Source of the DNA: Myxococcota bacterium
GTDB taxonomy: Bacteria > Myxococcota_A > UBA9160 > UBA4427
Length of the DNA: 64,000 bases
Reading direction: 5' to 3'
Assembly (NCBI GenBank): GCA_029243605.1
Contig: JAQWRT010000045.1
Location: forward strand, 62,001-126,000
A program made the translations under genes and the position numbers. Numbering within the stretch: the first letter of the stretch is position 1; each line of letters starts with the position of its first letter. This document shows, one piece after another, positions 10,123 through 61,996 of the stretch. The notes beneath the pieces are model-generated. The model was not told the DNA's origin and ran no database searches. It was given only the letters and a program-made list of their open reading frames with translations.

Positions 10123-12945
10123 TTGAAAATTTCGTCAATCGCCGCAGTTTTGTCCGTGCGTACCGGGAAGCCCGGGCCTCGGCAGAGCGGTAGGGGGGAA
10201 ACCGCGCTTTCCTGGGCGCGGATTGGCACCGCTTGCTTCCTGACGGCGATTTTCTGCACGGCCTTTGCTGCGCAAGTCTCCGCCGATCGACGTGGCCGGG
10301 GCGGAGATAGAGCAGAACGCAGGGAGCACTATCGCTCCATGAGCCACAAACACGTCTACCTTGAGCACAAGAGGCTCGACCTCGAGCTCGAAGACGTCGA
10401 AGATTTTGAATACGAAGGACACGAATCGAAACACAACGCGACAACCCACATGAATCTCCGGCAACGCATCCGGGGCGTCCCAATCCGCGGCGCCAACATG
10501 GGCCTGGCGGTCCGAAAGGACGGCCGAGTCGTAGGGCGCTGGAGCGATTTCATTCCCCGCGCACGGGGGCGCATCAACCGCATCGATCCCGACTTGGATG
10601 CCGAAGATGCTCTCTCTTTGGTCGCCCCCCTACTCGGCCTATCCGCTCCGGACGAGATCGTTATCCTGGAGTCGGCTGCGGGGCCCATGCGCTCGAGCGT
10701 CCTGGAAGGCGGCACCCTCTCTCGAGATCCGATCCCGGCAAAGCTCGTCTACCAGCCCTTGGGCAACCAGCTCCGGCTGGCATGGGATTTTGTCATCCGA
10801 ACCCCCGACGGACGACACTGGTGGAATATTCAGGTCGACACTGAAACCGGGGAGCTACTCGAAAAAGTCGACTGGATCGCACACGAGACCTACAGGGTCT
10901 TTGGCCCAGCACCAGTCTTGACACCCGACGAGGGACCACACGTTATTACCTCACCCCCCTCGCTGGTCAATGCGCCCATACCCTCTCCATACGGCTGGCA
11001 TGACACGAACGGAATCCCTGGGGCCGAATTTACGGACACCCGTGGAAATAACGTCCACGCCCAGGAAGACCAAGACGCCAATGATACTGGCGGCATCCGG
11101 CCAGACGGCGGCCCGGGGCTGGTTTTCAATTTCCCCTTCGCTTCAGGCCTTGCCCCTTCGACCTACCAATCGGCCTCGATAGCCAACCTCTTCTACTGGA
11201 ATAACGTCGCCCACGACCTCTTCTACCAATACGGCTTCGACGAAGCCAGTGGGAATTTCCAAGTCAACAACTACGGCCGCGGGGGAACCGACGGCGACCC
11301 GGTTCGGGCCGACGCCCACGACGGTGGAGGGACCAATAACGCCCAATTCGGAACTCCCCCGGACGGATTCCAGGGCATCATGGAGATGTTTCTCTGGACT
11401 GGCGCCGTACAGTTGGCCGTCATCTCGCCCGCTCCCATCGCAGGTGTTTACTCCGCAGCCGGGGCTGCCTTCGGTCCCGAATTGCCGAGCCCCGCTCTCG
11501 GGGGTTCTGTAGTCGCCGGCCTAGACTCCGCGAACCCGGCTGGCCCAACCTCCACCGATGGCTGCTCGGCGTTCACCAACGTGGCTTCCGTCAATGGTAA
11601 TATCGCCTTAGTCGATCGAGGGACTTGCGATTTTGTCGACAAGGTGGCAAATGCCCAAGCCGCCGGAGCGACCGCTGTGATCGTGGCTAATAATGCCGGC
11701 GAAAACCTCGTCAGCATGGGAGGCACGAACCCATTCATCACGATCCCTTCCATTTTTATCGGGCAAAGCGATGGAGCCCTGATTCGATCTAATCTTGGTT
11801 CTGTCGATGTAAGCCTCAATCCCTCGGTGATGCGAGATGGCTCGATGGACGCGGGTATTATCCTCCACGAATACGGCCACGGCGTCAGCAACAGGCTCAC
11901 CGGTGGGGCAGCCAATAGCGGGTGCTTGTCGGCAATCCAAAGTAGCGGGATGGGAGAGGGCTGGAGCGATTTCTTCGCTCTCTTCATGGGAACCCGGGTC
12001 GGGGATATCGGTACGGGTACCCGACTCTTGGGAAGCTACATCCTGTCTCAGCCGCCCAACGGGCAGGGCCTGCGCAGCCAGCCCTACAGCACGGACATGA
12101 CCACCAACACCCTTACCCTGGTCGATATCGAAACGGCAAACCAGCCCCACGGTATCGGCGAGGTATGGGCAACGGCTCTCTGGGAAGTCTTTTGGGAACT
12201 CGTCGACGCGCACGGATTCGATTCGGATGTCTATGAGGGCACAGGTGGAAATAATTTGGCCATGCAGCTGGTTATGGATGGGCTCAAGCTTCAGACTTGC
12301 AACCCCACCTTTATCGAAGCCAGGGATGCGGTTTTGCTGGCTGAGTCGAATATCACTGATGAGATCAACCAATGCCTGGTTTGGCGGGCGTTCGCCAAAA
12401 GAGGTCTCGGAGCGGCCGCCACGGTTTCATCGAATCCATCGAATCTCGTCACCAGTGAGGATTTCACCCTCCCCGCCACGTGCTCGGAGTTCTGCGCCGA
12501 TGGGGTGACGAATGCCGGAGAACAATGCGACGATGCCAACTTGATCGACTTGGACGGTTGTTCGCAAACGTGCCGGACCGAGGAGTCCTACACCTTCCAG
12601 GGTGTCGCAGCGGGAGGCACGGTTGAATTCGTCATCGAAGGCGAAAGCGTGATAATCATGACCCTTCCGGGCGAGACAGCCGCCGACGTTGCTCTCAAAA
12701 TGGCCACAGAGATTTCGGCGAATGCTAGCCTGGCTTCCCTAGGCGCCACCGGGCAAGCCAACGGGGACGTTGTCGTGGTCGCCGGAGCGATTTCGTCGAC
12801 TATCATTTCAGATACTGGTCTGGCACCCGCAGTCCCTCTTGGGGATTGGCTGCCGGGCATCCTGGCGCTCATCCTGCTCTTCTCCGGCATCTCGTGGCTA
12901 CAAGGACATAAACTCCGAAACCATGACCAGCCAGAGACCCACTAA
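10123..12945 (+). CDS. Secreted fungalysin (M36) metalloprotease with PA insert, DUF4215 repeat and C-terminal membrane tail
   Basis: A 940-residue exported zinc protease. The start is TTG with AGGGGA upstream. A hydrophobic signal segment follows a long basic leader ([21 protein letters not shown]). The propeptide (FTP/PepSY-like) spans roughly residues 80-270. The catalytic motif HEYGHG is at His582-Glu583-His586, and the third ligand is likely in GEGWSDF. A protease-associated domain is inserted at about 430-570, immediately before the active site. Near the C-terminus a DUF4215 Cys-rich repeat ([21 protein letters not shown]) is followed by VPLGDW, a membrane helix and a short basic tail, like a tripartite sorting signal. 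The stop overlaps the next gene by 23 bases. Confidence 0.92.
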
Positions 12946-45786: not shown

Positions 45787-46620
45787 TCAGCTCGGCGTTG
45801 GCCGCCATACCTGGGTATAGGTCTGGAACTCGACCTGCCCTGCCCTCTTCGCCATCTCCACGAGTTCCTCGATGGCCTGACGAACGGTCCCACCCCCGAC
45901 GTTTTTTCTTTCAAATGCGTGGTAGTGGGTCGCAAGAACGAAGAGTCCGCCCACCCCATGACAAAGCTCGAAAGTACGCTCGAGCTTCTTCAGATCGGTT
46001 TCGGGCCCCACCGTCTGGTAGGGTGCCTGCTTGAAACCTGCGAAGGACTGAACTTCGAAGGGGGAGTATCCGCCCCACTTCCGTCTCAGGGCATAACTCC
46101 CGGCAAGGGCAAAATCCGCGAGAGCCGAGGGGGATCTTGGAAAACCAAGAAGTCGCCCATAGGGTTGGTTGTTCACGACGTTCATACCCGCGGACGCGAC
46201 CGCCCTAAAACCCTCGAGCCCCATTGTATTATTAGGCGGAACGAAAGTCGCCACCTCGCAACCCAGAACCGATTCGAGGTATGCCCGGCCATGGCGAGTC
46301 TTTTTTTCAAGGTCATCGCCGGCGACGTACTCGGGCTTGCCCAGGGGCCGGGTGTGGTTGTACCCATGCATGGCAATATGAACTTTTCCCGCTCGAATCA
46401 ACTCGCGCAGAAAACGGACGAGGGGTTGGTTGTCTTCCAGAGGGATTGGCTCTTCTCCTCCAAAATGCGCCTCGGGAACCCCGAGACCCGTGCCCGGAAT
46501 CCGAAAAGGTGTCACGGATAATCCCACCGGAATCGAGTCCCAGACCCCGCCCCAACACGCCTCCAACTCATCGGGGAGGGTCATCGCCGAAGGATCATCG
46601 TCGCGAATCACGAACCTCAT
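45787..46620 (-). CDS. Polysaccharide deacetylase-like (DUF2334-type) protein
   Basis: A 277-residue NodB-like barrel protein. MRFVIRDDDPSAM carries the paired Asp of the metal site and IAMHGYNHTRP the HxxxH motif. VATFVPPNNTM and LATHYHAFE complete the active-site strands. No signal peptide, so it would act in the cytoplasm on a lipid- or nucleotide-linked sugar, or is exported by another route. It lies 45 bases downstream of the epimerase gene in a polysaccharide operon. Confidence 0.87.
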   Translation of the reverse strand: MRFVIRDDDPSAMTLPDELEACWGGVWDSIPVGLSVTPFRIPGTGLGVPEAHFGGEEPIPLEDNQPLVRFLRELIRAGKVHIAMHGYNHTRPLGKPEYVAGDDLEKKTRHGRAYLESVLGCEVATFVPPNNTMGLEGFRAVASAGMNVVNNQPYGRLLGFPRSPSALADFALAGSYALRRKWGGYSPFEVQSFAGFKQAPYQTVGPETDLKKLERTFELCHGVGGLFVLATHYHAFERKNVGGGTVRQAIEELVEMAKRAGQVEFQTYTQVWRPTPS

Positions 46621-46665
46621 CGTTCCCCCAGGAGCCGCCGGGTCTCTTCCCCGCTCTGGCCCCGG

Positions 46666-47673
46666 CTAGACCCCGTAGTAATCCCGATACCACTCGACGA
46701 ACCTTGCAATTCCCACTTCGACCGAAGTCGAGGGTTTATACCCCACGTCTTCGACCAGAGCATCGACGTCGGCGTAGGTGTCGGGAACATCGCCCGGTTG
46801 CAAGGGGAGAAGATTCCTCTCGGCCTTGAGTCCGAGATTTTCCTCGATCAACTCGATAAAGCGAAGCAGCTCGACGGGATTATTACTCCCGATATTGTAG
46901 AGCCGATAGGGGGCCTGGCTTGTCGCCGAATCGGGCCGATCGCTGGACCAGTCCTGATCGGGAGAGGCCACTCGATCGAGAGTTCTTACGACGCCCTCGA
47001 CAATATCGTCGATATAGGTGAAATCACGACGATGATTCCCGTAATTGAAGACGTCAATCGGTTCACCAGCAAGAATTTTCTGGGTAAACAGGAACAACGA
47101 CATATCGGGGCGACCCCACGGACCGTACACGGTAAAGAAGCGAAGCCCGGTCGTGGGAAGCCCAAACAAGTGGCTGTAGGTGTGCGCCATCAACTCGTTC
47201 GCCTTCTTGGAGGCGGCGTATAGGCTGATGGGATGGTCGACATTATCGTGCACTGAAAAGGGCACCTTCGTATTGGCACCATAAACCGAACTGCTCGATG
47301 CATAGACGAGGTGTTCCACTTCGTTATGCCTGCATGCTTCGAGAATGTTTACGAATCCGACCAGATTGGCGGAAACGTAGGCCTGGGGATTCTCAAGGGA
47401 GTATCGAACGCCCGCTTGGGCGGCAAGGTTCACCACCCGTTCAGGTCGATGTTCGGAGAAGGCCCGAAAAACCTCGTCGGCGTTCTCGATATCGAAGCGA
47501 AGATCCACGAATCCTGGATACCCGGAAAGGCGTTCCAGTCGCGATCGTTTGAGTTCCACATCGTAATAGTCGTTGAGATTGTCGATTCCAACGACCTCGT
47601 CGCCCCGCTCGAGCAGGTACTGGGCCAGGGCGGATCCGATGAAGCCTGCCGTCCCCGTTACAAGAACCTTCAT
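46666..47673 (-). CDS. UDP-glucuronate 4-epimerase-like NAD-dependent sugar epimerase
   Basis: A 335-residue extended short-chain dehydrogenase. [19 protein letters not shown] is the NAD-binding start, [14 protein letters not shown] and [23 protein letters not shown] are typical of UDP-glucuronate 4-epimerases, and SSSSVYG with YAASKKANE gives the catalytic Ser/Tyr-Lys. [12 protein letters not shown] and GDVPDTYAD also fit. It would supply UDP-galacturonate for a surface polysaccharide. The start overlaps the sulfotransferase stop (ATGA), so the two are coupled. Confidence 0.93.
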
Positions 47674-48413
47674 TTCTTATGCAATGCCTCCAATTTCCGG
47701 AAGGTCCGAGATGGTCTCTCGCCTGAGCAGAGCCCCATGACTCGATCGAGAAGGGTAAAGAGAAAGTAGTGAGCGTGGGCACGGTGCTGAGATGCGTTGC
47801 GAATGTCGACCAGAGTTTCCCCGATGAATTCCTGGAGTCTTAAAAAATCGGAGTTGCTGGACATCAAGTCTTCGTATCGAATCAGAAGAGCATCTAACTC
47901 GGATTTTTCGACGGCCCTCATCATACCCTGATTGTAGATCGACCAGGCCCGGAGAGCACGCCAAGCGACCCTGAGATCGCGAAGGGGACGCCGACGAAAC
48001 GGACGACGGTAATGATTAACGACCTCGACTGGATTCCGGTAGACACCAATCACCCGGTGCGGAGGAAGCACCTCTTTCCACTGCTGATACGTCAAGCACG
48101 TAAGCGGCTCCTTGAACCCCCAAGGCCCACCGCCAGCTTCCAAGGCATCGACCATCCCGCGCATTGCTTTTTCCTGGGCGGAAGGGAGAGGGCGGACAAT
48201 TTCCTGGAAGTGATCGAGGCTGAAATAATCTTCCTCGCGGCAGCCGATCAAATCCAAATTGATGACGAAGGCTTCCCGGCGCTCCCATTGGTTGCCCTGG
48301 TCGTAGCTTTTTCCGTTCTCGAAGTCATCGCCCATATCGATTCCGGAGCGATGGAGAAGCTGGGACACAAGCGTTGTCCCCGATTTGTGCATGCCAAGGA
48401 TGACGTAAATCAT
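47670..48413 (-). CDS. Sulfotransferase family protein
   Basis: About 247 residues from [28 protein letters not shown], the PAPS 5'-phosphosulfate loop of P-loop sulfotransferases. GFKEPLTCL and [16 protein letters not shown] fit the 3'-phosphate-binding segment. The ATG at 48413 is chosen because the domain begins there, although no good ribosome-binding site precedes it. The operon context suggests sulfation of a sugar in the exported polymer, in the same pathway as the epimerase and O-antigen ligase-like gene. Confidence 0.88.
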
Positions 48414-48501
48414 GAGAGGAGGAACGCCTCGAAAAAATTCCCGTCTCCCAGCCCATCCCGTGAGAGCGACCGAGGGGAGCGACCGAGAGAACCCCACACC
48501 G

Positions 48502-49746
48502 TCAAGCCGGAGCTCCTGGGCCGGTCAGGGAATCCTTGGAGTCATGCTCCTCAAAGAACGTCCCCACGAGAATCCCAGCGAAGAAGACAGCGTAAACCGG
48601 CAACTGCTGAATCGTATGGGAGAAGAAACTGTAGTAGAGAATCTGCGTGGTAATCAGAATCGGCGTCCAGCTCTTCTGGATACCGAAGCGAAAGCAGCGA
48701 AAAAAGGCGTTCCCGATTAGAAATAGGTAGATGAGAAGGCCCCCGACGCCGTACTCAACAGCAGTTTCAAGGAAGGCATTGTGCGAAAAAATCCCGTAGA
48801 AACGAGGGGCTCCGATTCCTTTGCCGGACCAGAAGTTGTCCAGGAACTGAGAGAGGGCAAACTCGAATCTCACAACCCTTCCCTGAGCAGACCCGTCGTC
48901 GAAATCCAGAGTCAGAAGCGATTGAAGGCGCCAAGCTTCCGCCGTATCAATGTCAATCAGCAAAGGGGTTATCAGGACCAACCCGACGATGAAGACAAGC
49001 CCTATCAGCCCAACACCGAAACGGGCGAAACCCGGTAGAGTGCCCGGCCCCCTTGGAAGCAGGAGGTAGGCGGCGAGGAGAAAAACGGCAAAGATCATGC
49101 CCGAACGACTCTGGGTAGAGATGATGGCGAGAACAGAAATGCCCACCACGAGCAGTCCCTTAAAGCTCTGCTTCGTGACGTCGACCGCCAGTAGGAGCAG
49201 CGCACCAATGGCCGCCGCCGATGTATTCGCATCCGCGTAGAGGCCGGAGGTTCGACCCGTCTCCTCAGAGCGGTTGTAAGGATTTTCAAAAACGAGATCC
49301 GCGAAGCTGAGCAGCACCGCTGTCGCCAGGGCTATTCGCGCGGCCGCCCGTAAGGTCTCGGCGCCCCGGGGTGCCGAGAGGAGAACGGCCGAGCCCGCAA
49401 ACGCGGCGAAGATCGTGGTGCGAAGGGTCGCCGAGGACCAAGCGAACGGGTTGGCGGACCCTCCGGAGAAATAGAGCAAGAGCGGGATCAGCATGGTCAG
49501 AGCCCAGACCCAGAAGATGGGCTTCAAGGCGACCTCGGCCAACTGGAAGGGGCGAGCCATGGCGAAGTAGAGGAGAAAGACGCCAACCACCAGATAAAAA
49601 CTGGGGATGGGCAGGTAGTCATCGGCCACCACATAAAAGCCGGTCAAAAAATAGACGAACCAAGCGCTCTCGAAGGCACCCACCAGGCCTCGGCCCTGGG
49701 CGCCACCCTCCGACAACACCGATTCTGATGGGAAGGCTTCAGCCAA
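48502..49746 (-). CDS. O-antigen ligase/polymerase-like membrane protein (Wzy/WaaL type)
   Basis: A 414-residue protein with about ten membrane helices, starting at TTG with GGAGA six bases before it. STQSRSGMIFAVFLLAAYLLL and the periplasmic loop ending GKGIGAPRFYGIFSHNAFLETAVEYGVGG are the signatures of the O-antigen ligase/Wzy family, including the conserved HNxxLE motif. It would polymerise or attach the glycan on the outer side of the inner membrane. It heads the minus-strand operon down to the deacetylase. Confidence 0.9.
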   Translation of the reverse strand: MAEAFPSESVLSEGGAQGRGLVGAFESAWFVYFLTGFYVVADDYLPIPSFYLVVGVFLLYFAMARPFQLAEVALKPIFWVWALTMLIPLLLYFSGGSANPFAWSSATLRTTIFAAFAGSAVLLSAPRGAETLRAAARIALATAVLLSFADLVFENPYNRSEETGRTSGLYADANTSAAAIGALLLLAVDVTKQSFKGLLVVGISVLAIISTQSRSGMIFAVFLLAAYLLLPRGPGTLPGFARFGVGLIGLVFIVGLVLITPLLIDIDTAEAWRLQSLLTLDFDDGSAQGRVVRFEFALSQFLDNFWSGKGIGAPRFYGIFSHNAFLETAVEYGVGGLLIYLFLIGNAFFRCFRFGIQKSWTPILITTQILYYSFFSHTIQQLPVYAVFFAGILVGTFFEEHDSKDSLTGPGAPA

Positions 49747-50059: not shown

Positions 50060-50371
50060 CTAAATCCTGCCCAGGGGACGCTCGAAGGTGTTTTCGTAGG
50101 GGGTCTCGACCAGAACTTCCCGAGCCGTCCCCACCTGCTCCACCGCGATGGTGATGGGGAGGGAGACCACGAAGAAGCCAGCACCCGCCACGGTGGAAAG
50201 CACTCCGAGGGGGCGCAAGAGGGCCGCATCCACGACCTTGGAGGTCATATCGGGGCCCGGAGCTTCGGCGCTCGCGGAACTCGTCGCCGATCCAGAGAGG
50301 CCCACCGCTAGGGTGGCGGCAAGAAAACAGCGGGCGGTACGCCTCTTGGTCATGGCACGCATTCGTCGCAT
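50060..50371 (-). CDS. Small secreted hypothetical protein
   Basis: 103 residues from the ATG at 50371, preceded by GGAGG nine bases upstream. A signal peptide (RCFLAATLAVGLSGSATSSASA) is followed by a hydrophobic segment VLSTVAGAGFFVVSLPITIAV and a tail ETPYENTFERPLGRI. Proteins of this plan (RPLG...VVSLP...F.RPLG) are widespread in proteobacteria as small periplasmic or membrane hypotheticals of unknown role. Start and signal peptide make it a real gene. Confidence 0.72.
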   Translation of the reverse strand: MRRMRAMTKRRTARCFLAATLAVGLSGSATSSASAEAPGPDMTSKVVDAALLRPLGVLSTVAGAGFFVVSLPITIAVEQVGTAREVLVETPYENTFERPLGRI

Positions 50372-50504: not shown

Positions 50505-50543
50505 GAAAAGAGAAACGCCGCCTGACCCAAAGGCCAGGCGGCG
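50505..50543 (-). terminator. Rho-independent terminator of the 50592 surface-protein gene
   Basis: CGCCGCCTG (50516-50524) pairs perfectly with CAGGCGGCG (50535-50543) around a 10-base loop. On the minus strand the hairpin is followed by TTTCTCTTTTC (opposite GAAAAGAGAAA). It lies 48 bases after the stop at 50592. It is the best intrinsic terminator seen in the window. Confidence 0.8.
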
Positions 50544-50591: not shown

Positions 50592-51971
50592 CTAGGACTG
50601 GCTACCCGCGAAGGTCCGCCGGGCCATATAGCCACCCGCCAGAAGCATCAGGGTCACAACCGCGCCAATCGCCGGAGCCGACATCGCCGGCACGGGGCTG
50701 GTGAAGTCGAGGCGAACCGCATCGAGCGCCGTAAAGTTCTTTCCCGACAGCATGCGGTGAGTAACGCCACCCGACACCATCACAATCCGACCGTTACCGG
50801 CACCTGTGCGGTTGTCGTAGCCCATCGCGCTGAGGGTCTCACTCGACGCAGCACCCATGCCGGTGATGCCTGTATGGATAGCCGTTACCGTCCCCGTGGT
50901 CCAAGGGAAACCAAAGTTGATATTGGAATCGCCCGGGAGCGAGAGCGGGAAATTCATGATCGTACCGGCACCCGGTGTCGGGATCGTCGGGAAAGTCATC
51001 TGCGGTCCGTGGGTAGTGATGTGCGAGCAGCTTACCGGCGTCGGGGGCAAAGCGTTCGGAACGCAGGGCGTGTTGATCGCAAAGCTGTTGTACACGGGCG
51101 CAGGAGCGAACGCGTTGGTCCTTGTCGCCGCGTACCCGAGCCCCATCCACTGCGGGCGGAAGATCGTCGTGTTAAGGGGGTCACCGAAAATCTGGTTCGC
51201 CATGGCGAGGGGAAGGCCCGGGGGGTAACCGAAGGCTGTCTTGTCGAGGGCCAAGGAGACATAGCCACCCGACGCTGACATCATGGCCATGGTGCCACCG
51301 AAGGCATTCGGGTTCGAATTCTTGTAGGTGATCTGCCCGTTATAACCAGCGACTCCGCCCGTTGCCAGGTTCGGAGCGGCACACGCAGGACCGCCCACTC
51401 CGGGGCACCATGCGAAGCTCTTCGCCAAACGAGCCGCCTGACCGGAATCTTGCGAATGAGCATTGGCCTCAAACTTGGCATTCCAGTTCAGCGAACTCAA
51501 GCCCGAAGACATCGAGGTTCCGGGAGCCCGGAAAACCATGGTCGTCGCCAACTGCTGCACCGTTTGGTTGATGGGAAGTGCCACGACCTGCTTGCCGGCA
51601 TTCTGGGCGAATGCGTGCGGGGGGACGGTGAAGGTAGCGGGAGCGCCGCCAGTGACATTCGCCGCCTGGGGCGCCGCCGGAACGCCGCCATTGGCCGCCT
51701 TGAACATCACCTGGCCTACGGCCATGCCGGTCGCATTCACGCCGGGCTTGTTGCCGAGACAGCCACCAATTCCGATCGGCTCACCGACACCGCCGAAACC
51801 ACAATAAACCACGCCGCCATTGATCGGGATATCGACCAGCTGACCACGGTTCTGAAACCACTCACCCGACATGTTCAGGGTTCTCGCCTGGGCTCCGACC
51901 GCAACGGTCAGAACTGCGGCAGCGGCCAACGCGGCCACCTTCAATCCGTTCAGTCCATTCATGAACTTCAT
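50592..51971 (-). CDS. Secreted hypothetical protein with C-terminal tripartite sorting-type tail
   Basis: A 459-residue exported protein with AAGGAG before its ATG. An N-terminal signal (LKVAALAAAAVLTVAVGAQA) is followed by a region rich in Gly, Asn, Ala and Pro and poor in charge, with few recognisable repeats. The C-terminus is a tripartite tail: VPAMSAP, a hydrophobic helix (AIGAVVTLMLLAGGYMA) and basic RRTF. This resembles PEP-CTERM/IPTL-type signals that are processed by exosortase-like enzymes, though the motif is not the classic PEP. The gene has a candidate sigma-54 promoter and its own terminator. Function unknown; a matrix or surface protein is a reasonable guess. Confidence 0.75.
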   Translation of the reverse strand: MKFMNGLNGLKVAALAAAAVLTVAVGAQARTLNMSGEWFQNRGQLVDIPINGGVVYCGFGGVGEPIGIGGCLGNKPGVNATGMAVGQVMFKAANGGVPAAPQAANVTGGAPATFTVPPHAFAQNAGKQVVALPINQTVQQLATTMVFRAPGTSMSSGLSSLNWNAKFEANAHSQDSGQAARLAKSFAWCPGVGGPACAAPNLATGGVAGYNGQITYKNSNPNAFGGTMAMMSASGGYVSLALDKTAFGYPPGLPLAMANQIFGDPLNTTIFRPQWMGLGYAATRTNAFAPAPVYNSFAINTPCVPNALPPTPVSCSHITTHGPQMTFPTIPTPGAGTIMNFPLSLPGDSNINFGFPWTTGTVTAIHTGITGMGAASSETLSAMGYDNRTGAGNGRIVMVSGGVTHRMLSGKNFTALDAVRLDFTSPVPAMSAPAIGAVVTLMLLAGGYMARRTFAGSQS

Positions 51972-52053
51972 TGTGTTTTGCTCCTTGAGCTAGAGTTGCT
52001 TGGCTCTTCCGAAATTTCCAAATCTCAAAAAATCCAAGGTGTGCCGATATAAA

Positions 52054-52069
52054 TGCAACATTGGGGCCA
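52054..52069 (-). promoter_or_regulatory. Candidate sigma-54 (-24/-12) promoter
   Basis: The minus strand reads TGGCCCCAATGTTGCA. GG and GC are separated by exactly ten bases, as required for sigma-54 (consensus TGGCAC-N5-TTGCA); only one base of the -24 hexamer differs. Transcription would start about 70 bases before the surface-protein ATG at 51971. It needs an enhancer-binding activator. Confidence 0.6.
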
Positions 52070-52157
52070 TCGGCGGATAAATACTCAATCTTTAATAAAG
52101 ACTATGCAAAACAGGCCTTTAGGCTTCCGCTGGGAAAACCATCCACCCCGTGGGAAT

Positions 52158-52172
52158 GGTGCAGTCCGCACC
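52158..52172. promoter_or_regulatory. Dyad at enhancer distance from the sigma-54 site
   Basis: GGTGC-AGTCC-GCACC is a perfect 5-bp inverted repeat about 95 bases upstream of the -24/-12 elements. The AT-rich DNA between could bend. This is where an upstream activator site would lie. The repeat is short, so chance is possible. Confidence 0.3.
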
Positions 52173-52517
52173 GAAAGTTGAGCCACTCGCTCCAGGGGGG
52201 GGCGGTATTCAAAAAATTCCTTTAATTACAATGACTTGAAGGTCCACCAACCCCCAGCGGTGCGAAATGCAGCAGTGCGGTAGTCTGAGCCACGGGCCAC
52301 AGACGCGTGCGAGCCTCGAAGAGTGCCGTCTTGGTCCGGGGAGAGCGCTGGATTTCCGAACCCGAGCCGTCAATCCCTTGACCCCTTGACGCGAACCCGA
52401 CCCGGCGGAGTGGGGCCTTCAAGGAGCCTGAATGGGTTCGTTGGTTGGCCCGCTTAGGGAGGCTTAACCTGGCCGAGGCTCGACGATCACGCCCCTATCG
52501 GGCTACCGTGCGCCGCC

Positions 52518-53783
52518 ATGAGAACAATTCTGATCGGGCTCGTGATCGCCCTCTTTGCCTCGGGGATCTCCTATCGACTCGCCTACGAACGGGGGCAGGC
52601 TGAGGGGCTCGCCGAGGGACTCGAAGCCGACCGCTTGGCGCGGATGGTCGAGAAGACCCAAGACCTGGCATTCCCCGGCATGGCCGGAGAGATCCGCGAC
52701 GTCCTGCTCATCCCCGACCCCATCGAGCGAGTTCGAGTGCTCGCCGAAATCTTCAGCGACCTCCCCCCCTCCCATCTCGACGCGGTCCTTCACGCGTACG
52801 ACACCGTCATTTTTCAAGCCGGCGACCCCGAAGTCATCCTTGTCGCCCAGTGGTGGACCCGTTTCGACCCCGAGGGAGCTTTTCGATGGACTCGACGCCA
52901 CTGGGAGGCACGCGTTCCCACCGTGGTCAGCGCGGTGATCCGGGAATGGGCCCGAATTGACCCGGAGCAGGCCTACGAGATCGTCGGTCCCCTCAACACG
53001 GGCGAACACCCTCTGGCCCCCTATGTGTACGCCCTTGTCGTGGGTTGGGAGGAATCGGGCAAACCGGGCCTCGACGACCTGATGATCAAAATGAGTGGGC
53101 CCCACGCCCAGAGGGCAACCACTGCGACCATGCGCCGCAGGGTTCGTCACCTGGGCGCCGAGGGAGCGATTGCCTGGGCCGAGGCGCTCCCCAAAGAGTC
53201 GCGAAATAATGCCTACCAGCGGCTCGCCAGCGCGCTTGCCGAGATCGACCCCCAGCAGGCCACCCAATTCGCCGAGCGTCACATGGGAAGCGGCGAAGGC
53301 CGATGGCTTCCCCGCCGGGTGGGCACCCGTTGGGCCAAATTTGACCCTCAGGCCGCCATGATCTGGCTCGCCAGCCTGCCGCCGGGCGAGGAGCGCGACG
53401 ACGGGATCACCGAAAGCTTTCGTCGCTGGCTCAAAGGCAATCGCTCCGACGCCCACGCTTGGGTTCGTTCCCTTGCCGGCCGGGAGGAGGACTCGGCCTG
53501 GGCCGAACCCGCGTTCGCACTTTATAGCCTGGACATCGCCGTGGAATCGCCCGAAGAAGCCGTCGCCTTCGCCGACGCGAATATCCGGAATTCCGAGCGG
53601 AGAAAACCCGCCGTGGGCAACCCTCTCCGGTATTGGCTCCTCCAAGACGAAACGGCAGCGCTCGCTTGGCTCGCCGCATCCGACTTCGACGAGAAGACCA
53701 AGGCCAGGATCGCCACGATCCCCGACGGATTACGAACCAACTACAAACTCTTCCTCAAGCAACAACACCAGAAACCACAATGA
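52518..53783 (+). CDS. Hypothetical membrane-anchored helical-repeat protein
   Basis: A 421-residue protein with one N-terminal membrane helix (TILIGLVIALFASGISYRLA). The rest is alpha-helical with repeats centred on DPExAFRWTRRHW, DPEQAYEIV, EGAIAWAEALPKE, DPQQATQFAERHM, DPQAAMIWLASLPPG and ETAALAWLAAS, a W/A-rich ~30-40 residue unit resembling Sel1/TPR-like repeats. Similar 'DPxxAxxWxxxLP' proteins occur in several phyla without a function. It ends 16 bases from the convergent TPR gene. Confidence 0.7.
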   Translation: MRTILIGLVIALFASGISYRLAYERGQAEGLAEGLEADRLARMVEKTQDLAFPGMAGEIRDVLLIPDPIERVRVLAEIFSDLPPSHLDAVLHAYDTVIFQAGDPEVILVAQWWTRFDPEGAFRWTRRHWEARVPTVVSAVIREWARIDPEQAYEIVGPLNTGEHPLAPYVYALVVGWEESGKPGLDDLMIKMSGPHAQRATTATMRRRVRHLGAEGAIAWAEALPKESRNNAYQRLASALAEIDPQQATQFAERHMGSGEGRWLPRRVGTRWAKFDPQAAMIWLASLPPGEERDDGITESFRRWLKGNRSDAHAWVRSLAGREEDSAWAEPAFALYSLDIAVESPEEAVAFADANIRNSERRKPAVGNPLRYWLLQDETAALAWLAASDFDEKTKARIATIPDGLRTNYKLFLKQQHQKPQ

Positions 53784-53799: not shown

Positions 53800-56031
53800 C
53801 TAGCTAGCATCGAGCGCCAGCCGCTCCCTGAGGAACTTCGTGGCTTCGGGTCCGCCTCCGAAGCGCGCGGCCCTCACCGCCAGGGCCCGGGCGGCCTCGG
53901 CTCGACCCGCCTCGGCCTCCAGCTGTGCAAGCCTCAGAGCAGCGCCACCATGGTAGGGCTCGCGCTCGAGAGCCGCGCGCAAGAGCGCAGCGCCCTCGTC
54001 CGCACGACTCGCCTGGGAGAGAACCTCCGCCGCTGCCAGTAAGGCCGAAACATCCCGCGGCTGAATCTCGGCCAATCTCTTGTAAACTCGAATCGCGGAA
54101 TCCGTCTCCCCGCTCTGCGCGTGAGCCTGGGCAAGAGCCTCGAGCGCCATGGGCTCGTCCGCATCCAATTCGAGGGCCCGGTCATAGGCAATTTTCGCCG
54201 CCGAGGCCTCTCCCAACTCCGAGAGGAGGAACCCCTCGAGCCCACGAAGGCCCGCCGAAGAGGGGTTCGCTTCGAGGGTCTCAGCCAGTTGCGACTGGGC
54301 AGACTCGGGCTGGTCGCTTGCTAGTAGCGCGAGCAACAGACTTTTGAGGATCGGCAAATTCTCGGGCGACGATAAATCGAGAGTGCTCGACTGGAGAATC
54401 ATCTCCGCCACGGCGGGCTCCCCCCCCCTATGTCGCGCGCCTTCGATGAAGATCAGCGAAGCTCGGGTTCGAAATTCGGAGGACGGGGCAAAACGAGAAA
54501 GGTGACCCGGTACTGAACCCTCGGTCTGCCCAAGTCGCTCCATCAGTGCGAGTTCGAGCAGCGCCTCCTCAAATTCGGGAGGAGTCTTCTCGGAATCGTG
54601 GCGGAGCACGGTCAGCGCCTCACCGTAGGCCCCCTCGGCGAAATAGAGCCGGGCAAGACGCAAGCGAGAGTCCGTCTCAGAGGCTCCGGCGCGCATGGAG
54701 TAGCGGTATTCGTCGATCGCCCTTGGAAAATCTCCGAGTTCCTCGGCGGAGAGCCCTACGAGGTAACGCACCACGAAGTTATTGGGCCAGAGAACCAGCC
54801 CCTGATCGAAGTGCTCGAGGGCCTTGGCGTAATCCTCTTGCTCGAAATAAGCCCTACCCCTGATCATTTCCTTGTGCGGCTCTGAGGCCATCCTATCGGC
54901 CAGGGCAAGGACGTCGTCCACTTTCCCCGCAACAGCCAACGCATCGCCATAAGCAAAGAGTAACTCGGGGTCGCGCTCACCCCGAATCTCGATGGTCTTT
55001 TCGAAACTCGCGAGCCCCTCCTCGGTCTTTCCGTGGGAAATCTGGAAAGCGGCCAAGTCCCAGAGCGCCTGGGCCGCCAGGGTGGGCTGCTCGAATTTCG
55101 TTGCTTCGCCAAGCAAGGCCTCGGCTTGATCGACCCTACCGATCACATCAAAACGGCGGGCGAGAGCGATGCGGATAGCCCGGTTCCTGGGATTGAAATC
55201 GAGTGCCGCTTCGATGATCTCGTTCGATCTGGCGATCTCCCCCCTTTCGTCGAGGAGTTCAACAACTTCGCTCACCAGGACATCGTTTCCGGGGTGGCGC
55301 TCAAGGCACTCCAAGTAAATTTCCTCGGCGCGCTCGGGTTCCCCCTTCTCGAAGGCGAATTTCCCACGAATCGCGCAATACCTTCCCGCGTCGTGCCCCA
55401 ACCCCATATCGACGAGTTCAAAGTGCTCGGCGGCGATCTCAATGGCCTCACCCGCCTCCTCGACGCGCTCCAGAGCGAGCAGAGCGAGCGCTCGGGCCAC
55501 GAGGCCGGCGCTGTCCTCGGGCATCAATTCCAACACCCGATCGGCATCCTCAAGGGCCTTGTCGTAGTCCTGGCGGCTGTTGATCAACGCCATGGCTCGA
55601 ATCGCGTAAGCCCCCGCCAGCTCCGGATTCACCTCGAGGGCCTGGCTCGCTCCTTCGATCGCGAGGGGGTAATTCATACTGCGCAGCCCCCCCGAAGCGA
55701 TCTCGACCGCAGCGACCCCCTTGTACAGGGGATCCTCCATCGCCTTGCGGAGAGCCCAAAGCGCGGGGGTGAGCCTGCCCGTCATGGACAGTGCACGGCC
55801 GTAAAGGTAGAGAACCTCGGGATCCTCGCGCCCACCCTCTTCCTTCAAAAGAAGCCTGAGGGGCTCGATCGAATCTTCGAAGCGCCGCTGTTGCTGCAGG
55901 CTCTTCACATCCTCGATGGAGGGCGAACCGCCACAGCCGGCAACAAGCATGGCAAAAATGAGGACTGCGGCAGTGACCGCCTGCCACGGCAGCAGGCCGA
56001 TTCGGTTGACATCGACAAGACTTGCTCTCAT
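53800..56031 (-). CDS. TPR-repeat lipoprotein
   Basis: A 743-residue protein from MRASLVDVNRIGLLPW; the track's start at 56145 is rejected because the signal peptide begins at the ATG at 56031. The signal ends in a lipobox, LVAGCGGS, so the mature protein would be lipid-anchored at Cys. About 15 or more tetratricopeptide units follow (for example YLYGRALSMTGRLTPALWALRKA and ALAQAHAQSGETDSAIRVYKRLAEIQP). Such proteins are scaffolds, for instance in polysaccharide export. A run of nine G lies inside the gene. Promoter shared with the divergent 56116 gene. Confidence 0.88.
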   Translation of the reverse strand: MRASLVDVNRIGLLPWQAVTAAVLIFAMLVAGCGGSPSIEDVKSLQQQRRFEDSIEPLRLLLKEEGGREDPEVLYLYGRALSMTGRLTPALWALRKAMEDPLYKGVAAVEIASGGLRSMNYPLAIEGASQALEVNPELAGAYAIRAMALINSRQDYDKALEDADRVLELMPEDSAGLVARALALLALERVEEAGEAIEIAAEHFELVDMGLGHDAGRYCAIRGKFAFEKGEPERAEEIYLECLERHPGNDVLVSEVVELLDERGEIARSNEIIEAALDFNPRNRAIRIALARRFDVIGRVDQAEALLGEATKFEQPTLAAQALWDLAAFQISHGKTEEGLASFEKTIEIRGERDPELLFAYGDALAVAGKVDDVLALADRMASEPHKEMIRGRAYFEQEDYAKALEHFDQGLVLWPNNFVVRYLVGLSAEELGDFPRAIDEYRYSMRAGASETDSRLRLARLYFAEGAYGEALTVLRHDSEKTPPEFEEALLELALMERLGQTEGSVPGHLSRFAPSSEFRTRASLIFIEGARHRGGEPAVAEMILQSSTLDLSSPENLPILKSLLLALLASDQPESAQSQLAETLEANPSSAGLRGLEGFLLSELGEASAAKIAYDRALELDADEPMALEALAQAHAQSGETDSAIRVYKRLAEIQPRDVSALLAAAEVLSQASRADEGAALLRAALEREPYHGGAALRLAQLEAEAGRAEAARALAVRAARFGGGPEATKFLRERLALDAS
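54420..54428 (-). repeat. Nine-base G tract in the TPR lipoprotein gene
   Basis: The minus strand reads AGGGGGGGGGAG within codons for Arg-Gly-Gly-Glu. Homopolymeric G tracts of this length in coding DNA can slip. It lies in the middle of the gene. Confidence 0.9.
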
Positions 56032-56115: not shown

Positions 56116-57531
56116 ATGAGCCAGATCCGCAAGATTTTGGGTCAACGCTGGCCGTGGTTCGCCGCGGCCGGATTAGTCGTCGCCCTTTACCTCGCCCAAT
56201 TCGTCCGAATCTCCTTGGAGCTCCCCGCACCGGAGCGGCCCAACGGGACCGTGGCCGACATCGAGAAACTCTCGGATCGCGACGATGTCAACGTGCTCTT
56301 CATTTTGGTCGACACCCTCCGTGCGGACCGTCTGAGCACCTACGGGTACGAAAGGCCGACGGCGCCCTTTCTCGATAAACTGGCCGAGAACGGGGTGTTA
56401 TTCGGTAGCCACCTTGCCCAGTCCTCTTGGACCAAATGCTCCATGGCGTCCCTGTGGACCGGGCTCTACCCGGTGCGTGCCGGGGTCACCCGCTTCGAGC
56501 ACGTCCTCTCTCAGGACGCCCGGATGCCCGCCGAGATCCTCTCCGAAAACGGCTTCTTCACCGCCGGCCTCTACCGCAACGGGTGGGTAGAGGGCTACTT
56601 CGGATTCGATCAGGGCTTTGAGGTCTACACGCGGCCGACGAGTAAGCTCGTGGACGCCTCCATCCGGCTGGCAAACCCCACCCTGAAGGGGGGGGGAACC
56701 GACGAAGACGCGGTCCTGGCCGCCATGGAATTTCTTCGCATCTATGGCGATGAACGCTGGTTTCTTTACTTGCACCTGATGGACGTGCACGAGTACCTCT
56801 ACGACGAGGATTCAGCCCAGTTCGGCACGGATTACTCCTCGGTCTACGACAACTCGGTTCTCCGAACCAATCTAGTCATGGACGAGTTCTACAAGTATCT
56901 GGAGCGGGAGGGCTACCTGGAGAACACCCTGATCGTGATCACGTCGGACCATGGGGAAGCTTTCGGAGAACGCGGCTCTGAGGGCCACGCGCGCGCGGTC
57001 TATCGCGAAACCACCGAGGTGCCGATGATCATGAGCCTTCCCTTCAAGATCCCCGGCGGAGTGGTCGTCGACCAACGTACCCAGAATGTTGATGTCTGGC
57101 CCACTATTCTCGACCTCCTCGGCATCGAGGGTCTGGGCGAAGTGGACGGCAAGTCCCAGGTTCCCGCTCTGCTCGCTGCAGCGCGCAACGAATCACTCGA
57201 CGATGATGGCACTTCCTTCGCTCACCTCGATCAGAACTGGGGTCGACGCGGGGCCAATATCGCCGACAACGTAGCCGTGCTCAAAGACGGCTATCGCTAC
57301 ATGCAAGAGAAAAAACCCGACGGCAGCCTGAAGGAAGAACTCTTCAATTCCCGAGAGGACGCCGCAGAACTCACCGACCTCATCAACGACGACGCCGAGA
57401 CCACCGAACGCCTTCGAGGCCTCGCCGAGGGGTACTTGGAGCGGACGCCGCCCTGGGACATCCCCGATATGCTCGAGATCGACGAGATCCAGCTCAACCA
57501 ACTGCGAGCGCTCGGCTACTCGATTCCCTGA
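56116..57531 (+). CDS. Sulfatase-like membrane enzyme lacking the CxPxR formylglycine motif
   Basis: The real gene is 471 residues from the ATG at 56116 (MSQIRKILGQRWPWFAA); the track's first 361 residues are shadow of the TPR gene. After one membrane helix comes an alkaline-phosphatase-fold domain: VLFILVDTLRADRLSTYGY (metal Asp), SSWTKCSMASLWTGLYP at the active-site position, LYLHLMDVHEYLYDE, and ITSDHGEAFGERG. The active-site loop has T106-K-C108-S instead of C/S-x-P-x-R. Relatives with the 'SWTxPSxASLxTG' loop use Thr or Ser and may be phospho- or sulfotransferases; the Cys here replaces the Pro. A nine-base G tract is in the gene. Confidence 0.85.
   Translation: MSQIRKILGQRWPWFAAAGLVVALYLAQFVRISLELPAPERPNGTVADIEKLSDRDDVNVLFILVDTLRADRLSTYGYERPTAPFLDKLAENGVLFGSHLAQSSWTKCSMASLWTGLYPVRAGVTRFEHVLSQDARMPAEILSENGFFTAGLYRNGWVEGYFGFDQGFEVYTRPTSKLVDASIRLANPTLKGGGTDEDAVLAAMEFLRIYGDERWFLYLHLMDVHEYLYDEDSAQFGTDYSSVYDNSVLRTNLVMDEFYKYLEREGYLENTLIVITSDHGEAFGERGSEGHARAVYRETTEVPMIMSLPFKIPGGVVVDQRTQNVDVWPTILDLLGIEGLGEVDGKSQVPALLAAARNESLDDDGTSFAHLDQNWGRRGANIADNVAVLKDGYRYMQEKKPDGSLKEELFNSREDAAELTDLINDDAETTERLRGLAEGYLERTPPWDIPDMLEIDEIQLNQLRALGYSIP
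56688..56696 (+). repeat. Nine-base G tract in the sulfatase-like gene
   Basis: AAGGGGGGGGGAACC encodes Lys-Gly-Gly-Gly-Thr (NPTLKGGGTDED). A change of one base would truncate the protein. The neighbouring divergent gene has a similar tract. Confidence 0.9.
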
Positions 57532-57574: not shown

Positions 57575-60502
57575 CTAGAAGTTCAGCGCGAAGTCGATCC
57601 CGAAGGAGCGCGGCTCCCCGACGAAATTAAGAATCACACTGTTGAACGCAGTGGCGTCGAAAGCGTAACTCTTGTACCGCTGATCTGTCAGATTTCGCCC
57701 CCACAACGAAACTTCAGCCGTGGAGTCCGCGTTGCGGTAACTCAGTCTCAAGCTGTGGATCGCGTAGGCTGGCTGGCCCAGAGTCAGTTCGGGAAGTTTG
57801 CCGAACCCGCCTTGACTGTTCTTAGCGACACCGATGCCATTGCTCGGATCGAAGTAGAGATCGTCCGTCCAAGCGAAATCGTAGCGGGGAATCACGACGC
57901 CAAGGCTGCCCAGGTCGAAATACCACTCCACCGTGGCGCTTATCTTGTAATTGGGCGAATTGGGAAGGCTGTTTCCGCTGTAATCAATGATATCCGTGAC
58001 GACGCCCTCCCCGACCACCAGAGCCGTCCGGCGATTGGTGAAATCGAGGAAGCGGCTCTGCAGCCAACTGAAACGCCCTGTGATGGCCAGCCCCGACCAC
58101 TCGTCGGCGATGAGGTCACGGAGAGGCTCGGCGGTGAAGTTGAACTCAGCTCCGTATTGCTCGCTTTCCGCGGCATTCTTGATGGCCAAAGACGGGGGGC
58201 GACCGTACTGATCGTCAAAAAGAAAGACCTGGTAGTTGTTGTACTCGTAGTAGAAGACCGATGCGTCCATGGACAGCCGACTGTCGAGGAAAACCCCCCG
58301 GAACCCCGCCTCGATGGCATCGATACTCTCGGGGTCAGCGGGCGGATCGTTTATATCGATGCTGTTGAAGTGCCCCGCTTTGAACCCGTGTCCGTATTTC
58401 CAGTAGATGGCCATGGAGTCATCCACCCGGTAGGTGAGACTGATCGTTCCCGTCGGCTCACTCCACGTTTTGCTCCGAATCTCGCTCTGCCTGATTCCAC
58501 CCCGGTCGATGAAAAGACCGAAGTCCTTACTCTCCCAGTTGTAGCGGGCGCCGACTTCGAGAATCAGATCTTCAACGAATTCCCATGAAAAACCGGCATT
58601 GAAAGCGAAAGCCGTCGTCTTCTGGTCGAAAGATCGTATCCATACCTGGCTAACCCCGGGAACAAGAGGCGATCGAATGAACTGCTGATTCTCAAATTTC
58701 AGATCCTCGTAGAGGAAATAACCACCCCCGGTCAAAGTGAAAAGACCCGCGTCGTCTTCGTACGCGACTTGGGCTTCCTGTGAAAACTGCCAGGCCGAAT
58801 CCGTCAACACCGCTTCGAAGAGTTCCAACGAGGTGAAGTCCTGATCGGTTTCACGAAAGCGGTCGTAGCCCTCGTAACCCGAAATTAAATGCACCTCGAC
58901 GCTATCGAAATAGAGCTTTCCGTTGAGAGAGGTGCCCCATGTGTCGAGTTTTGTCTGGCCCACTCGATTGTAGTCACCACGATAGGGTCCTGTATCGAGC
59001 GGCCTGCTTCGCGACAGGTCTTTTTGGAGGGTCGCGATCGCCTCGTTCTTCGCCTCCTGGACAAGCGGGTCATTGCCCGTCGCAGTGCTCTTGTCGATAT
59101 TTCTTGCTGCGGCGGCCCGCTCAAAGAGAGCGGTCATATCTGACGCAATGTCGCGCTCGGTGTAGAACCCCGAGATGGCGCTGCCTGCGGCCCCACCCAT
59201 TTGAGACTCAGACTGAGGGTTTTCGATGACACCGACGTTCCAGCCGTTGCCCGGCTCCACCTGAGGCCGGGCGGTCCCCATGGCCTGCCCCAGGGTCGAT
59301 TGCTGGTCAACGCGCCCCCCGTGCATGTTCAGAATCCAGTCCATATCCACCGGGCCGTCTAGGGGCTGGTAGCGGATCTGGTTGCGAACACCCCAATTCC
59401 CCTTGTCTCCCACCGCGGAGGGGAGACCTTCGGGCGTTGGGTCGCGTTGGAACAGAGGAATGTCGAGATTGCCACAGAGCGAAATGTCTTCCGGCATCAA
59501 AGAAGGCAGTGGCACCTGATCAAAGAACGGGAAAGTACCCGTAAAGTTTTGCTTCCTGTCGTCCACGGGGGGCAGGCCTCCGCACCCATTATACTGGTAG
59601 GGATCGTTGGCCTGGAGCCGAAAAGCCATACGCGTGGAAAGTTCGTCTTCTATGATGGGCATCTCGATGGCGCCCTCGTAGGACTGAATCAGCGCATTGC
59701 GAGCATCATCGCTCTGGTAGCGCCCGGTAGTTGTCTTCAGATCGGCTGAAAAATTCCCGGTGGGTTTGCGCGAAGAGATTTTAATTGCTCCCGCCGTCGC
59801 GTTGCGTCCGCTCCCCCCGCCCTGGGGACCGCGCAAGACCTCGATCCCCTCGACATCAAAAATCTGCCCCAGCTGAATCGCCGGGGAGTTAAGCGCCACG
59901 CCATCCTGATAAATCGCCACGGCGCTGGCCGCATTGGCGCTGAAATCTGCCAGGCCTACGCCGCGAATGAAGAAGTTGGCGCTCGTCGCACCCGAGACCC
60001 GGATCTCGAGATTGGGCGTCACCTGGGAGATATCAGCGATGTCACTCACGCCGAGGGCATCCAAGTCAGCGGAATCAAAGGCCGTGACCGATTCCGCCGT
60101 GTCCATCTCGACGGCCTGGCCGCGCTTGCCGCTGATCTCCATGGTTTCAATCCCAGAGAGGGAATCAAACTCATCCTCTTCGCTTTCATCGAGGGGCTCA
60201 AACTCCGCAGCATCGAGTTGCGCGTCCTCGTAGGAAGCCGCCGACGTTTGGGGGGCGACGCTTTCGCCCTCCAAGGGGGCGGGCTGGGCGGATACCACTC
60301 CGGGCATCAGCCCGAGGAAAAGCGCCCCAATGCCCAGGACCAAGCGACAGCGCCATGTCGCCGGGGCGCTTTGTTTTCCAACCCGAGTCCCTGCTCCGAT
60401 CGTCCTCTTCCCAACCGATCCCGTAATCGAGCGAGCGACAGGCGGGCAAACTCCACCATCGCCAACCGGCCACGGCAGGCCCAACACGAACCGCTCGCTC
60501 AT
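57575..60502 (-). CDS. TonB-dependent outer-membrane receptor
   Basis: A 975-residue receptor. The ATG at 60502 has GGAG eight bases upstream, although a long basic leader precedes the hydrophobic signal (CRLVLGIGALFLGLMPGVVSA). An acidic stretch (EFEPLDESEEDEFDSL) leads to IETMEISGKRG, a TonB-box-like segment, and the plug domain with VTPNLEIRVSGATSANFFIRGVG and EVLRGPQGGGSGRNATAGAI. The barrel ends in LNF with a terminal Phe. Substrate unknown: plug and barrel resemble the large marine 'iron/complex-compound' receptors that also import small organic molecules. It diverges from the barrel gene at 60659. Confidence 0.94.
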   Translation of the reverse strand: MSERFVLGLPWPVGDGGVCPPVARSITGSVGKRTIGAGTRVGKQSAPATWRCRLVLGIGALFLGLMPGVVSAQPAPLEGESVAPQTSAASYEDAQLDAAEFEPLDESEEDEFDSLSGIETMEISGKRGQAVEMDTAESVTAFDSADLDALGVSDIADISQVTPNLEIRVSGATSANFFIRGVGLADFSANAASAVAIYQDGVALNSPAIQLGQIFDVEGIEVLRGPQGGGSGRNATAGAIKISSRKPTGNFSADLKTTTGRYQSDDARNALIQSYEGAIEMPIIEDELSTRMAFRLQANDPYQYNGCGGLPPVDDRKQNFTGTFPFFDQVPLPSLMPEDISLCGNLDIPLFQRDPTPEGLPSAVGDKGNWGVRNQIRYQPLDGPVDMDWILNMHGGRVDQQSTLGQAMGTARPQVEPGNGWNVGVIENPQSESQMGGAAGSAISGFYTERDIASDMTALFERAAAARNIDKSTATGNDPLVQEAKNEAIATLQKDLSRSRPLDTGPYRGDYNRVGQTKLDTWGTSLNGKLYFDSVEVHLISGYEGYDRFRETDQDFTSLELFEAVLTDSAWQFSQEAQVAYEDDAGLFTLTGGGYFLYEDLKFENQQFIRSPLVPGVSQVWIRSFDQKTTAFAFNAGFSWEFVEDLILEVGARYNWESKDFGLFIDRGGIRQSEIRSKTWSEPTGTISLTYRVDDSMAIYWKYGHGFKAGHFNSIDINDPPADPESIDAIEAGFRGVFLDSRLSMDASVFYYEYNNYQVFLFDDQYGRPPSLAIKNAAESEQYGAEFNFTAEPLRDLIADEWSGLAITGRFSWLQSRFLDFTNRRTALVVGEGVVTDIIDYSGNSLPNSPNYKISATVEWYFDLGSLGVVIPRYDFAWTDDLYFDPSNGIGVAKNSQGGFGKLPELTLGQPAYAIHSLRLSYRNADSTAEVSLWGRNLTDQRYKSYAFDATAFNSVILNFVGEPRSFGIDFALNF

Positions 60503-60658: not shown

Positions 60659-61996
60659 ATGCATCAATTCGTCAAGAGACTCGAATCGAAAGTCGTGCGG
60701 GGGCTTTTTGTCCTCTGCCTCAGCTTAGCCACCAGTATCGGCTTGCCCGCCGCCGCCGAGAGTGAGAAGGCGTCTGCGAGCCTCTACCGCTGGGCGCCCG
60801 CGATCGCAATTCAAGGAGGAATTTTCGCTCAGTCGGCATCGGGCTCGATTACGGCGAGCGAGGTACTCGGCGCCCAAACTCCAACGGTCGAATTTCAGCC
60901 GGCTCCGATCTATATCACCAGTCCCTACCTGACTCGGTCGGGTCAGATGACGACCGGTGAAGGCGACCGAATGATGAACCCCTATTTTGGAGTCGCCGTA
61001 GAACTCATGTCGCCTGCGATTCGCGACTGCCACTTCTGTTCCGAAATCGGCAACCCCCGGCTCATGATACACGCCGACGTGGACTATGGGTTTGCCCTCG
61101 ACCGTAGTATCGCCACTACGGGCTCGGTGAGCGACACGATGACCTTCGCCAATCTCCCCAGCCAATACTATGCAGACAACACGACGAACGGCAGTTTGAC
61201 GTATAACGAAACGAGCTTCCTCGGCCAGGGAGCGCACGTTCGTGTCAAGACCGAGGCACTCGTCGTCGCCGCAGGGGCTGGCATCGCCTTTACTTTCAAA
61301 GTCGGGGGTCGAACATTCAGGCTCAAACCGAGCTTCGAATATATGCGCGAGGAACTCCAGGTGTCGGGCCGGCTGCGAAGGGCAACTCAAGTGTCCAACA
61401 GCGTCCTTCCCCGTAACCTCGAGAATTATGTACCGGTGGGACTCTTCCAGCCGGGAACCGGTCCCAATAATAACCTCATCTACGCTCCCAATGGCGACCC
61501 GTGCTACGTCAATGGAACGTGCGTTTTCGTGCCGGTAGGGCAAACCCAAAACGTTTTCGACGGAACATCTATCCCCCAATTGTCCGACGACGCCACCCCC
61601 ACGGACGCAGGCTTCCGTGAGATCGAGTTGGACATCCGAAACTCAAAGGTCTACCACGGCATCGGCCCCGGTCTCGAACTCGAGTTGGATACGGGTCGGC
61701 TTGGCGAGTTTCAAGTCTCTCTCTATGGCGGCTTGCGCGCCTACCGGTTCATGGGAGACCTAGAACTGGATGGACGGGCCCAGAACGATGCCCAGACCAA
61801 CAACTACACGACCGGGGACCCCATCACCGGCCCCTTTGGCCCCGGCTCCAACATCGAACGAAATAACGTCAACTACGAGCGCAACTGTGTCATCGGTGAC
61901 GCCAGTCAGTGCGAGTACGCCGATTTTCACTTCGAGAAGGAGCGCTGGGCCTATACGGGCCACTTGGGCATCCGGTTCCGCTGGTCGCCCGAATAG
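60659..61996 (+). CDS. Putative outer-membrane beta-barrel protein
   Basis: A 445-residue exported protein with a signal peptide (GLFVLCLSLATSIGLPAAA). The mature chain alternates hydrophobic and polar residues, with aromatic ends (for example YGGLRAYRFMGDLEL and GHLGIRFRWSPE), suggesting membrane strands. Two Cys pairs (CHFCSEIG and CYVNGTC) might be disulfides. I do not recognise the family. The divergent gene is a TonB-dependent receptor, with a 156-base gap; joint regulation is plausible. Confidence 0.75.
   Translation: MHQFVKRLESKVVRGLFVLCLSLATSIGLPAAAESEKASASLYRWAPAIAIQGGIFAQSASGSITASEVLGAQTPTVEFQPAPIYITSPYLTRSGQMTTGEGDRMMNPYFGVAVELMSPAIRDCHFCSEIGNPRLMIHADVDYGFALDRSIATTGSVSDTMTFANLPSQYYADNTTNGSLTYNETSFLGQGAHVRVKTEALVVAAGAGIAFTFKVGGRTFRLKPSFEYMREELQVSGRLRRATQVSNSVLPRNLENYVPVGLFQPGTGPNNNLIYAPNGDPCYVNGTCVFVPVGQTQNVFDGTSIPQLSDDATPTDAGFREIELDIRNSKVYHGIGPGLELELDTGRLGEFQVSLYGGLRAYRFMGDLELDGRAQNDAQTNNYTTGDPITGPFGPGSNIERNNVNYERNCVIGDASQCEYADFHFEKERWAYTGHLGIRFRWSPE

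Follow-up and report, generated by a model that had tools for sequence, protein, structure and literature searches.

In the PEP-CTERM/EpsH (exosortase A) system, a secreted protein with a tripartite C-terminal tail is encoded as a single-gene unit behind a long upstream region, which carries a sigma-54 element and an upstream activator site, and a TPR lipoprotein is encoded nearby (PMC1569441). The sigma-54 elements upstream of proteobacterial PEP-CTERM genes are accompanied by a motif that ends in TTTACA, and these genes occur with PrsK, PrsR and PrsT (Haft 2006, PMC1569441). RpoN dependence has been shown experimentally for a PEP-CTERM gene next to prsT in Aquincola (PMC9850573), and in Desulfovibrio the targets of a PEP-CTERM-regulating response regulator have been mapped (PMC3333781). 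A different tail, IPTL-CTERM (TIGR04174), goes with exosortase H (XrtH; TIGR04177), and is reported for the S-layer protein mela_00855 of Methylomirabilis lanthanidiphila (PMC8671808). Our literature search gave neither a paper on XrtH nor one on a regulated block of the kind described below.

Here we analyze a window of 64,000 nucleotides, the whole stretch of DNA under study, from a Myxococcota draft genome (4.44 Mb, 97 contigs). Among named genomes, its closest relatives are uncultured and labeled Myxococcota or "Deltaproteobacteria"; in one, isolate ANT-51, the surface protein considered here is 90% identical. The gene for this protein shares with the PEP-CTERM/EpsH system (PMC1569441) the single-gene unit, the long upstream region with a sigma-54 element and upstream activator site, the secreted product with a tripartite tail, and a neighboring TPR lipoprotein. 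It differs in having a VP/TPxxS tail instead of a PEP tail, a GGYGC-N5-GCRCC (or GGRAAA/TTTYCC) dyad 100-154 nt upstream instead of a TTTACA motif about 63 nt upstream, and additional sulfatase-like, TonB and alpha-solenoid genes in its surroundings. Similarly, pepA-prsT of Aquincola tertiaricarbonis combines an RpoN-dependent exosortase-substrate gene, a mapped -24/-12 start and a close PrsT-type TPR gene; the substrate there is PEP-CTERM in an exosortase A setting, and the passages on these genes do not mention a sulfatase/TonB block (PMC9850573).

Results

The locus compared with PEP-CTERM RpoN systems

On sequence grounds, the gene would work like the PEP-CTERM RpoN systems, yet it falls below their thresholds. 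The best PrsR-like regulators of the genome reach 415.5 bits (TIGR02915 cut-off 502.6), and the neighboring TPR protein, whose best NCBIfam match is PrsT, reaches 137.7 bits (TIGR02917 cut-off 312.2). The 3' end of motif 1, TTTACA, is absent from the window promoter and from 11 of 13 others, and in the remaining two it is not at the described place. By PrsR scores and this motif, the link to PrsK/PrsR that an earlier note on this DNA had drawn is not shown. We count the gene as a variant of the known sorting systems because its anatomy is similar but the PEP-CTERM, PrsR and PrsT thresholds are failed and TTTACA is absent.

Features of the locus, in window coordinates
Feature	Position	Strand	Remarks
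Small membrane or secreted protein	50060..50371	-	103 aa; conserved downstream neighbor
Intrinsic terminator	50516..50543	-	12-bp stem and T tract; just beyond 50592-52172
Surface protein	50592..51971	-	459 aa; beta-rich domain with no known relatives between a signal peptide and a VPAMSAP-TM-RR sorting tail
C-terminal sorting tail	50592..50702	-	motif, transmembrane helix, basic end; SPVPAMSAPAIGAVVTLMLLAGGYMARR
Signal peptide	51885..51971	-	residues ~1-29, from sequence; AQA-R cleavage likely; hydrophobic N-terminus conserved in homologues
-24/-12 (sigma-54) promoter	52054..52069	-	TGGCCCCAATGTTGCA; TGGCCC-N5-TTGCA; ~98 nt before ATG
Candidate upstream activator site	52158..52172	-	class 1 dyad GGTGCGGACTGCACC; GGTGC-N5-GCACC; 103 nt above -24 box
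Second dyad copy	52259..52273	-	GCTGCATTTCGCACC; imperfect, 9 of 10
Predicted membrane-anchored alpha-solenoid protein	52518..53783	+	421 aa; divergent; conserved neighbor
TPR lipoprotein	53800..56031	-	lipobox
Membrane-anchored sulfatase-like enzyme	56116..57531	+	alkaline phosphatase superfamily; conserved in block
TonB-dependent outer-membrane receptor	57575..60502	-	conserved in block
Protein without family match	60659..61996	+	445 aa; in some conserved blocks

The surface protein and its sorting tail

The surface protein has the parts by which exosortase substrates are recognized. As the earlier note had claimed, an N-terminal signal helix is present and the C-terminus is tripartite, with a motif, a transmembrane helix and basic residues (SPVPAMSAPAIGAVVTLMLLAGGYMARRTFAGSQS); an AlphaFold model places helices at residues 4-25 and 432-457, and exosortases are encoded in the same genome. 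The product is probably displayed on the cell surface. Neither Pfam nor NCBIfam has a model that matches the protein, not even PEP-CTERM, and searching solved structures by sequence gave nothing usable. The best fold matches were porins, but with TM-scores of at most 0.2, which is not meaningful, on a model of middling quality (pLDDT 62.5).

In type, the tail is closer to IPTL-CTERM (XrtH type) than to PEP-CTERM. It has the Pro-x-x-Ser followed by a transmembrane helix and Arg, although the Trp of IPTLSEWG is mostly absent here. None of the NCBIfam tail models matches the tail of the protein itself: TIGR02595 (PEP-CTERM; PEP motif, >16 bits) gave no match, with nothing found in NCBIfam up to E=10, and TIGR04174 (IPTL-CTERM, >20.5 bits) was not reached. 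The tail of one homologue scores 18.9 bits against this IPTL-CTERM cut-off of 20.5, and another protein of the same genome passes it with 22.6. About five other proteins of the genome share the tail, as the note had anticipated, in VPxLSP/IPTL-like form; they include a TolB-like protein, a GH18 chitinase-like protein and the one that passes the IPTL-CTERM cut-off. The proposed variant of a PEP-CTERM system with a different motif therefore survives in part: the tail is of the exosortase type, but it is IPTL/XrtH-like, and the genome's approximately 40 ordinary PEP-CTERM proteins are separate. From tail and signal peptide alone, the protein is also like mela_00855, a surface protein of a diderm bacterium with an IPTL-type tail, for which the passages concerned report neither regulation nor a gene block (PMC8671808).

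Homologues of the surface protein were detected in 31 of 98 relatives and carry either VP/TPxxS tails or real PEP-CTERM tails, a label that needs only about two changes on the tree. In G004, the homologue (L135 2446-4179; L008 958-2691) has an unrelated secreted domain fused to its N-terminus and is without the promoter. Separately, protein L080 (G000:C33:2504) has a VPTLSPLGVLLMIGLLF segment in its middle, followed by a second domain; by eye this resembles "midcut-by-XrtH", and none of the NCBIfam models matched.

Exosortases and their probable pairing with the tail

Three exosortase homologues, all PF09721 matches above the cut-off, are present in the genome, in line with the earlier expectation. 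The C50 enzyme is XrtA/D-like and belongs to an exopolysaccharide locus, where an NtrC-type regulator is its neighbor, and the enzyme of contig C63 is an XrtW/D-like fusion protein approximately 110 kb from the surface-protein gene. The enzyme of contig C25 is short and retains the Cys, Arg and His conserved in exosortases. It scores below the cut-offs of both archaeosortase B (97.6 bits against 150) and XrtH/TIGR04177 (83.7 against 86), so that it lies just under the XrtH threshold while, unlike exosortase H, its best score is to archaeosortase B. The genes next to its own encode a 181-aa membrane protein that matches no family and a protein of the prolyl oligopeptidase family (L088 10467-13059). 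Selenocysteine in several XrtH-like genes was considered and rejected: the in-frame TGA codons are normal stops or precede the start.

An XrtH-like enzyme is the likely partner of the VP tail. Across 98 genomes, a strong XrtH-like enzyme was found in 16 of the 22 with a tail-profile match and in 21 of the 76 without one (p=0.0003), and the tail profile matched in none of the 17 genomes that lack any exosortase. The single case of an exosortase linked to the block is G079 (L191 4098-14000), where the whole block and an XrtH-like exosortase after it fit into 10 kb, the tail gene has a promoter match of 15.1 of 17.5, and a second XrtH-like gene is found elsewhere. The pairing is not universal, since three VP-tailed draft assemblies (G016, G045 and G063) have EpsH-type exosortases only among the matches listed. 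These genomes, and the frequent presence of an XrtH-like enzyme in genomes with a PEP-tailed homologue, are why we grade it as no more than likely. Phylogenetic profiling likewise found no single exosortase class in all VP-tailed genomes, among the matches listed.

The tail could alternatively be cut by an EpsH-type exosortase, either the C50 XrtA/D-like enzyme or the C63 XrtW/D-like fusion, which would place the gene in the ordinary PEP-CTERM system, as a substrate with an unusual motif. True PEP-CTERM tails on homologues of the same protein, the exosortase content of G045 and G063 among the matches listed, and the setting of C50 in an exopolysaccharide locus with an NtrC-type regulator speak for this reading. 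We nevertheless consider it unlikely, as the motif is without PEP, the IPTL/XrtH models score where TIGR02595 does not, tail matches associate with XrtH-like enzymes and one XrtH-like gene adjoins the block.

It is more improbable still that the tail is a membrane anchor only, with the protein remaining in the inner membrane by its C-terminal helix without exosortase action. The motif is indeed variable (VPAMSAP, TPALSAP, TPSMGPA), but the compared tails share a conserved Pro, hydrophobic stretch and Arg, homologues swap to PEP-CTERM tails, and the exosortase-free genomes have no tail matches.

The promoter and its upstream dyads

The surface-protein gene is apparently under a tightly controlled sigma-54 promoter. 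A -24(GG)/-12(GC) element and putative upstream activator sites lie in front of it, and rpoN, also foreseen by the earlier note, is present in the genome. In the 215 nt upstream of the gene, approximately 0.25% of shuffles score as well as its -24/-12 element. What the note had called a strong match to such a promoter is, standing alone, weak evidence: with one mismatch allowed, one such site is expected per 64 kb by chance, and 73 of 100 shuffled windows contain one. We therefore tested its conservation, which places the promoter beyond chance.

A comparable promoter, called at a score of at least 14.5 of 17.5 on our own simple weight scheme and at most 250 nt from the start, was found in 15 of 19 VP/TP-tailed homologues versus 2 of 11 PEP-tailed ones (Fisher p=0.002, a value that overstates the independent evidence because the tail label changes only about twice on the tree). 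Nearly all of these 15 have a shuffle p below 0.01, and one (L016) has an uncertain start codon. The 30 nt around the element are identical between the window genome and its closest relative, while the flanks diverge. Orthologues in the sister genomes G005 and G016 (L003, L005) keep a VPAMSPMG tail and lack both promoter and dyad. Upstream of the other VP-tailed genes of the window genome the promoter is absent; it therefore tracks the surface-protein family and not the tail class. Among the PEP-CTERM genes of the same genome, 1 of 20 checked has a comparable promoter.

The dyad at activator distance was also found as described, together with a poorer second copy. The GGYGC-N5-GCRCC dyad occurs 103-114 nt above the -24 box in six homologues (L001, L002, L006, L009, L011 and L015), and a GGRAAA/TTTYCC dyad 111-154 nt above it in six others (L004, L007, L010, L014, L022 and L029). 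No gene has both classes, and two promoter-less VP genes have neither. Two mutually exclusive dyads at fixed distances are a sign of activator sites. Shuffles reached the dyads in 0.2-1.5% (GGYGC-N5-GCRCC) and at most 0.5% (GGRAAA/TTTYCC) of cases per sequence, figures that are optimistic because the consensus was taken partly from the same sequences. A genome-wide search for dyad plus promoter gave 21 pattern matches, and a perfect dyad with a strong promoter only at the surface-protein gene. The gene's own terminator was confirmed as well.

That the -24/-12 match is a non-working promoter, or that the intergenic region serves mainly the divergent alpha-solenoid gene, is very improbable: chance matches do arise in a window of this size and the region is shared with that gene, but in 15 of 19 VP-tailed homologues the element keeps its orientation and its spacing from the tail gene, and two dyad classes lie at fixed distances.

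The conserved gene block

The surface-protein gene lies in a block whose order and orientation are kept around its homologues: TonB receptor, sulfatase-like enzyme, TPR protein, divergent alpha-solenoid protein, tail protein and small ORF. The block surrounds VP-tailed and PEP-tailed homologues alike. In G015, a TPALS-tailed copy (L142) has alpha-solenoid and TPR neighbors, and a second, PEP-tailed copy has the block. The model of the alpha-solenoid protein is good (pLDDT 84.9) and matches generic helical repeats only. We found no published description of such a block, which looks like a novel form of the known PEP-CTERM/exosortase sorting systems.

The polysaccharide operon noted nearby does exist (45787-49746; Wzy, sulfotransferase, epimerase and deacetylase-like genes), but it was rejected as functional context because it adjoins the gene only in the closest relative, and the conserved neighbors lie mostly on the other side. 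Elsewhere in the window (10123-12945), a gene encodes a large metallopeptidase of the M36 fungalysin type that carries a myxobacterial cysteine-rich repeat.

Discussion

We think it likely that the surface protein is sorted by an exosortase, most probably XrtH-like, and transcribed from its own sigma-54 promoter; the partner, activator and function proposed here are putative. On sequence evidence, an enhancer-binding activator bound to the dyads approximately 103 and 204 nt above the -24/-12 element would open RpoN polymerase; the genome encodes roughly 13 NtrC-type regulators. Protein families and gene linkage suggest the following steps. The product would be exported via its signal peptide, with its C-terminal helix keeping it in the inner membrane, and an exosortase, most likely C25, would cut at VPxxS and hand the protein to the cell surface. 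The TPR lipoprotein, the alpha-solenoid protein and other block products may help to assemble or serve the surface component, as PrsT does for PEP-CTERM proteins. This component might form a matrix or resemble an S-layer, or it might capture substrates together with the TonB receptor and the sulfatase-like enzyme.

More tentatively, the locus could represent a second sigma-54-controlled exosortase lineage, apart from PrsK/PrsR, in uncultured Myxococcota. Such a lineage would possess a self-contained block (TonB receptor, sulfatase-like enzyme, TPR protein, alpha-solenoid protein and surface protein, with an XrtH-like exosortase in one genome), and its tails would switch between PEP and VP/TPxxS in evolution, as would its activator site.

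Exosortases have been defined largely by bioinformatics, and which enzyme pairs with which tail is an open question of the field. Homologous proteins with either tail type in the same block provide a natural experiment for enzyme-tail specificity. The block also points to accessory genes that can be tested: the TPR lipoprotein, the alpha-solenoid protein, the sulfatase-like enzyme and the TonB receptor. The family also suggests that such surface proteins can come under sigma-54 control outside the PrsK/PrsR system known from Proteobacteria.
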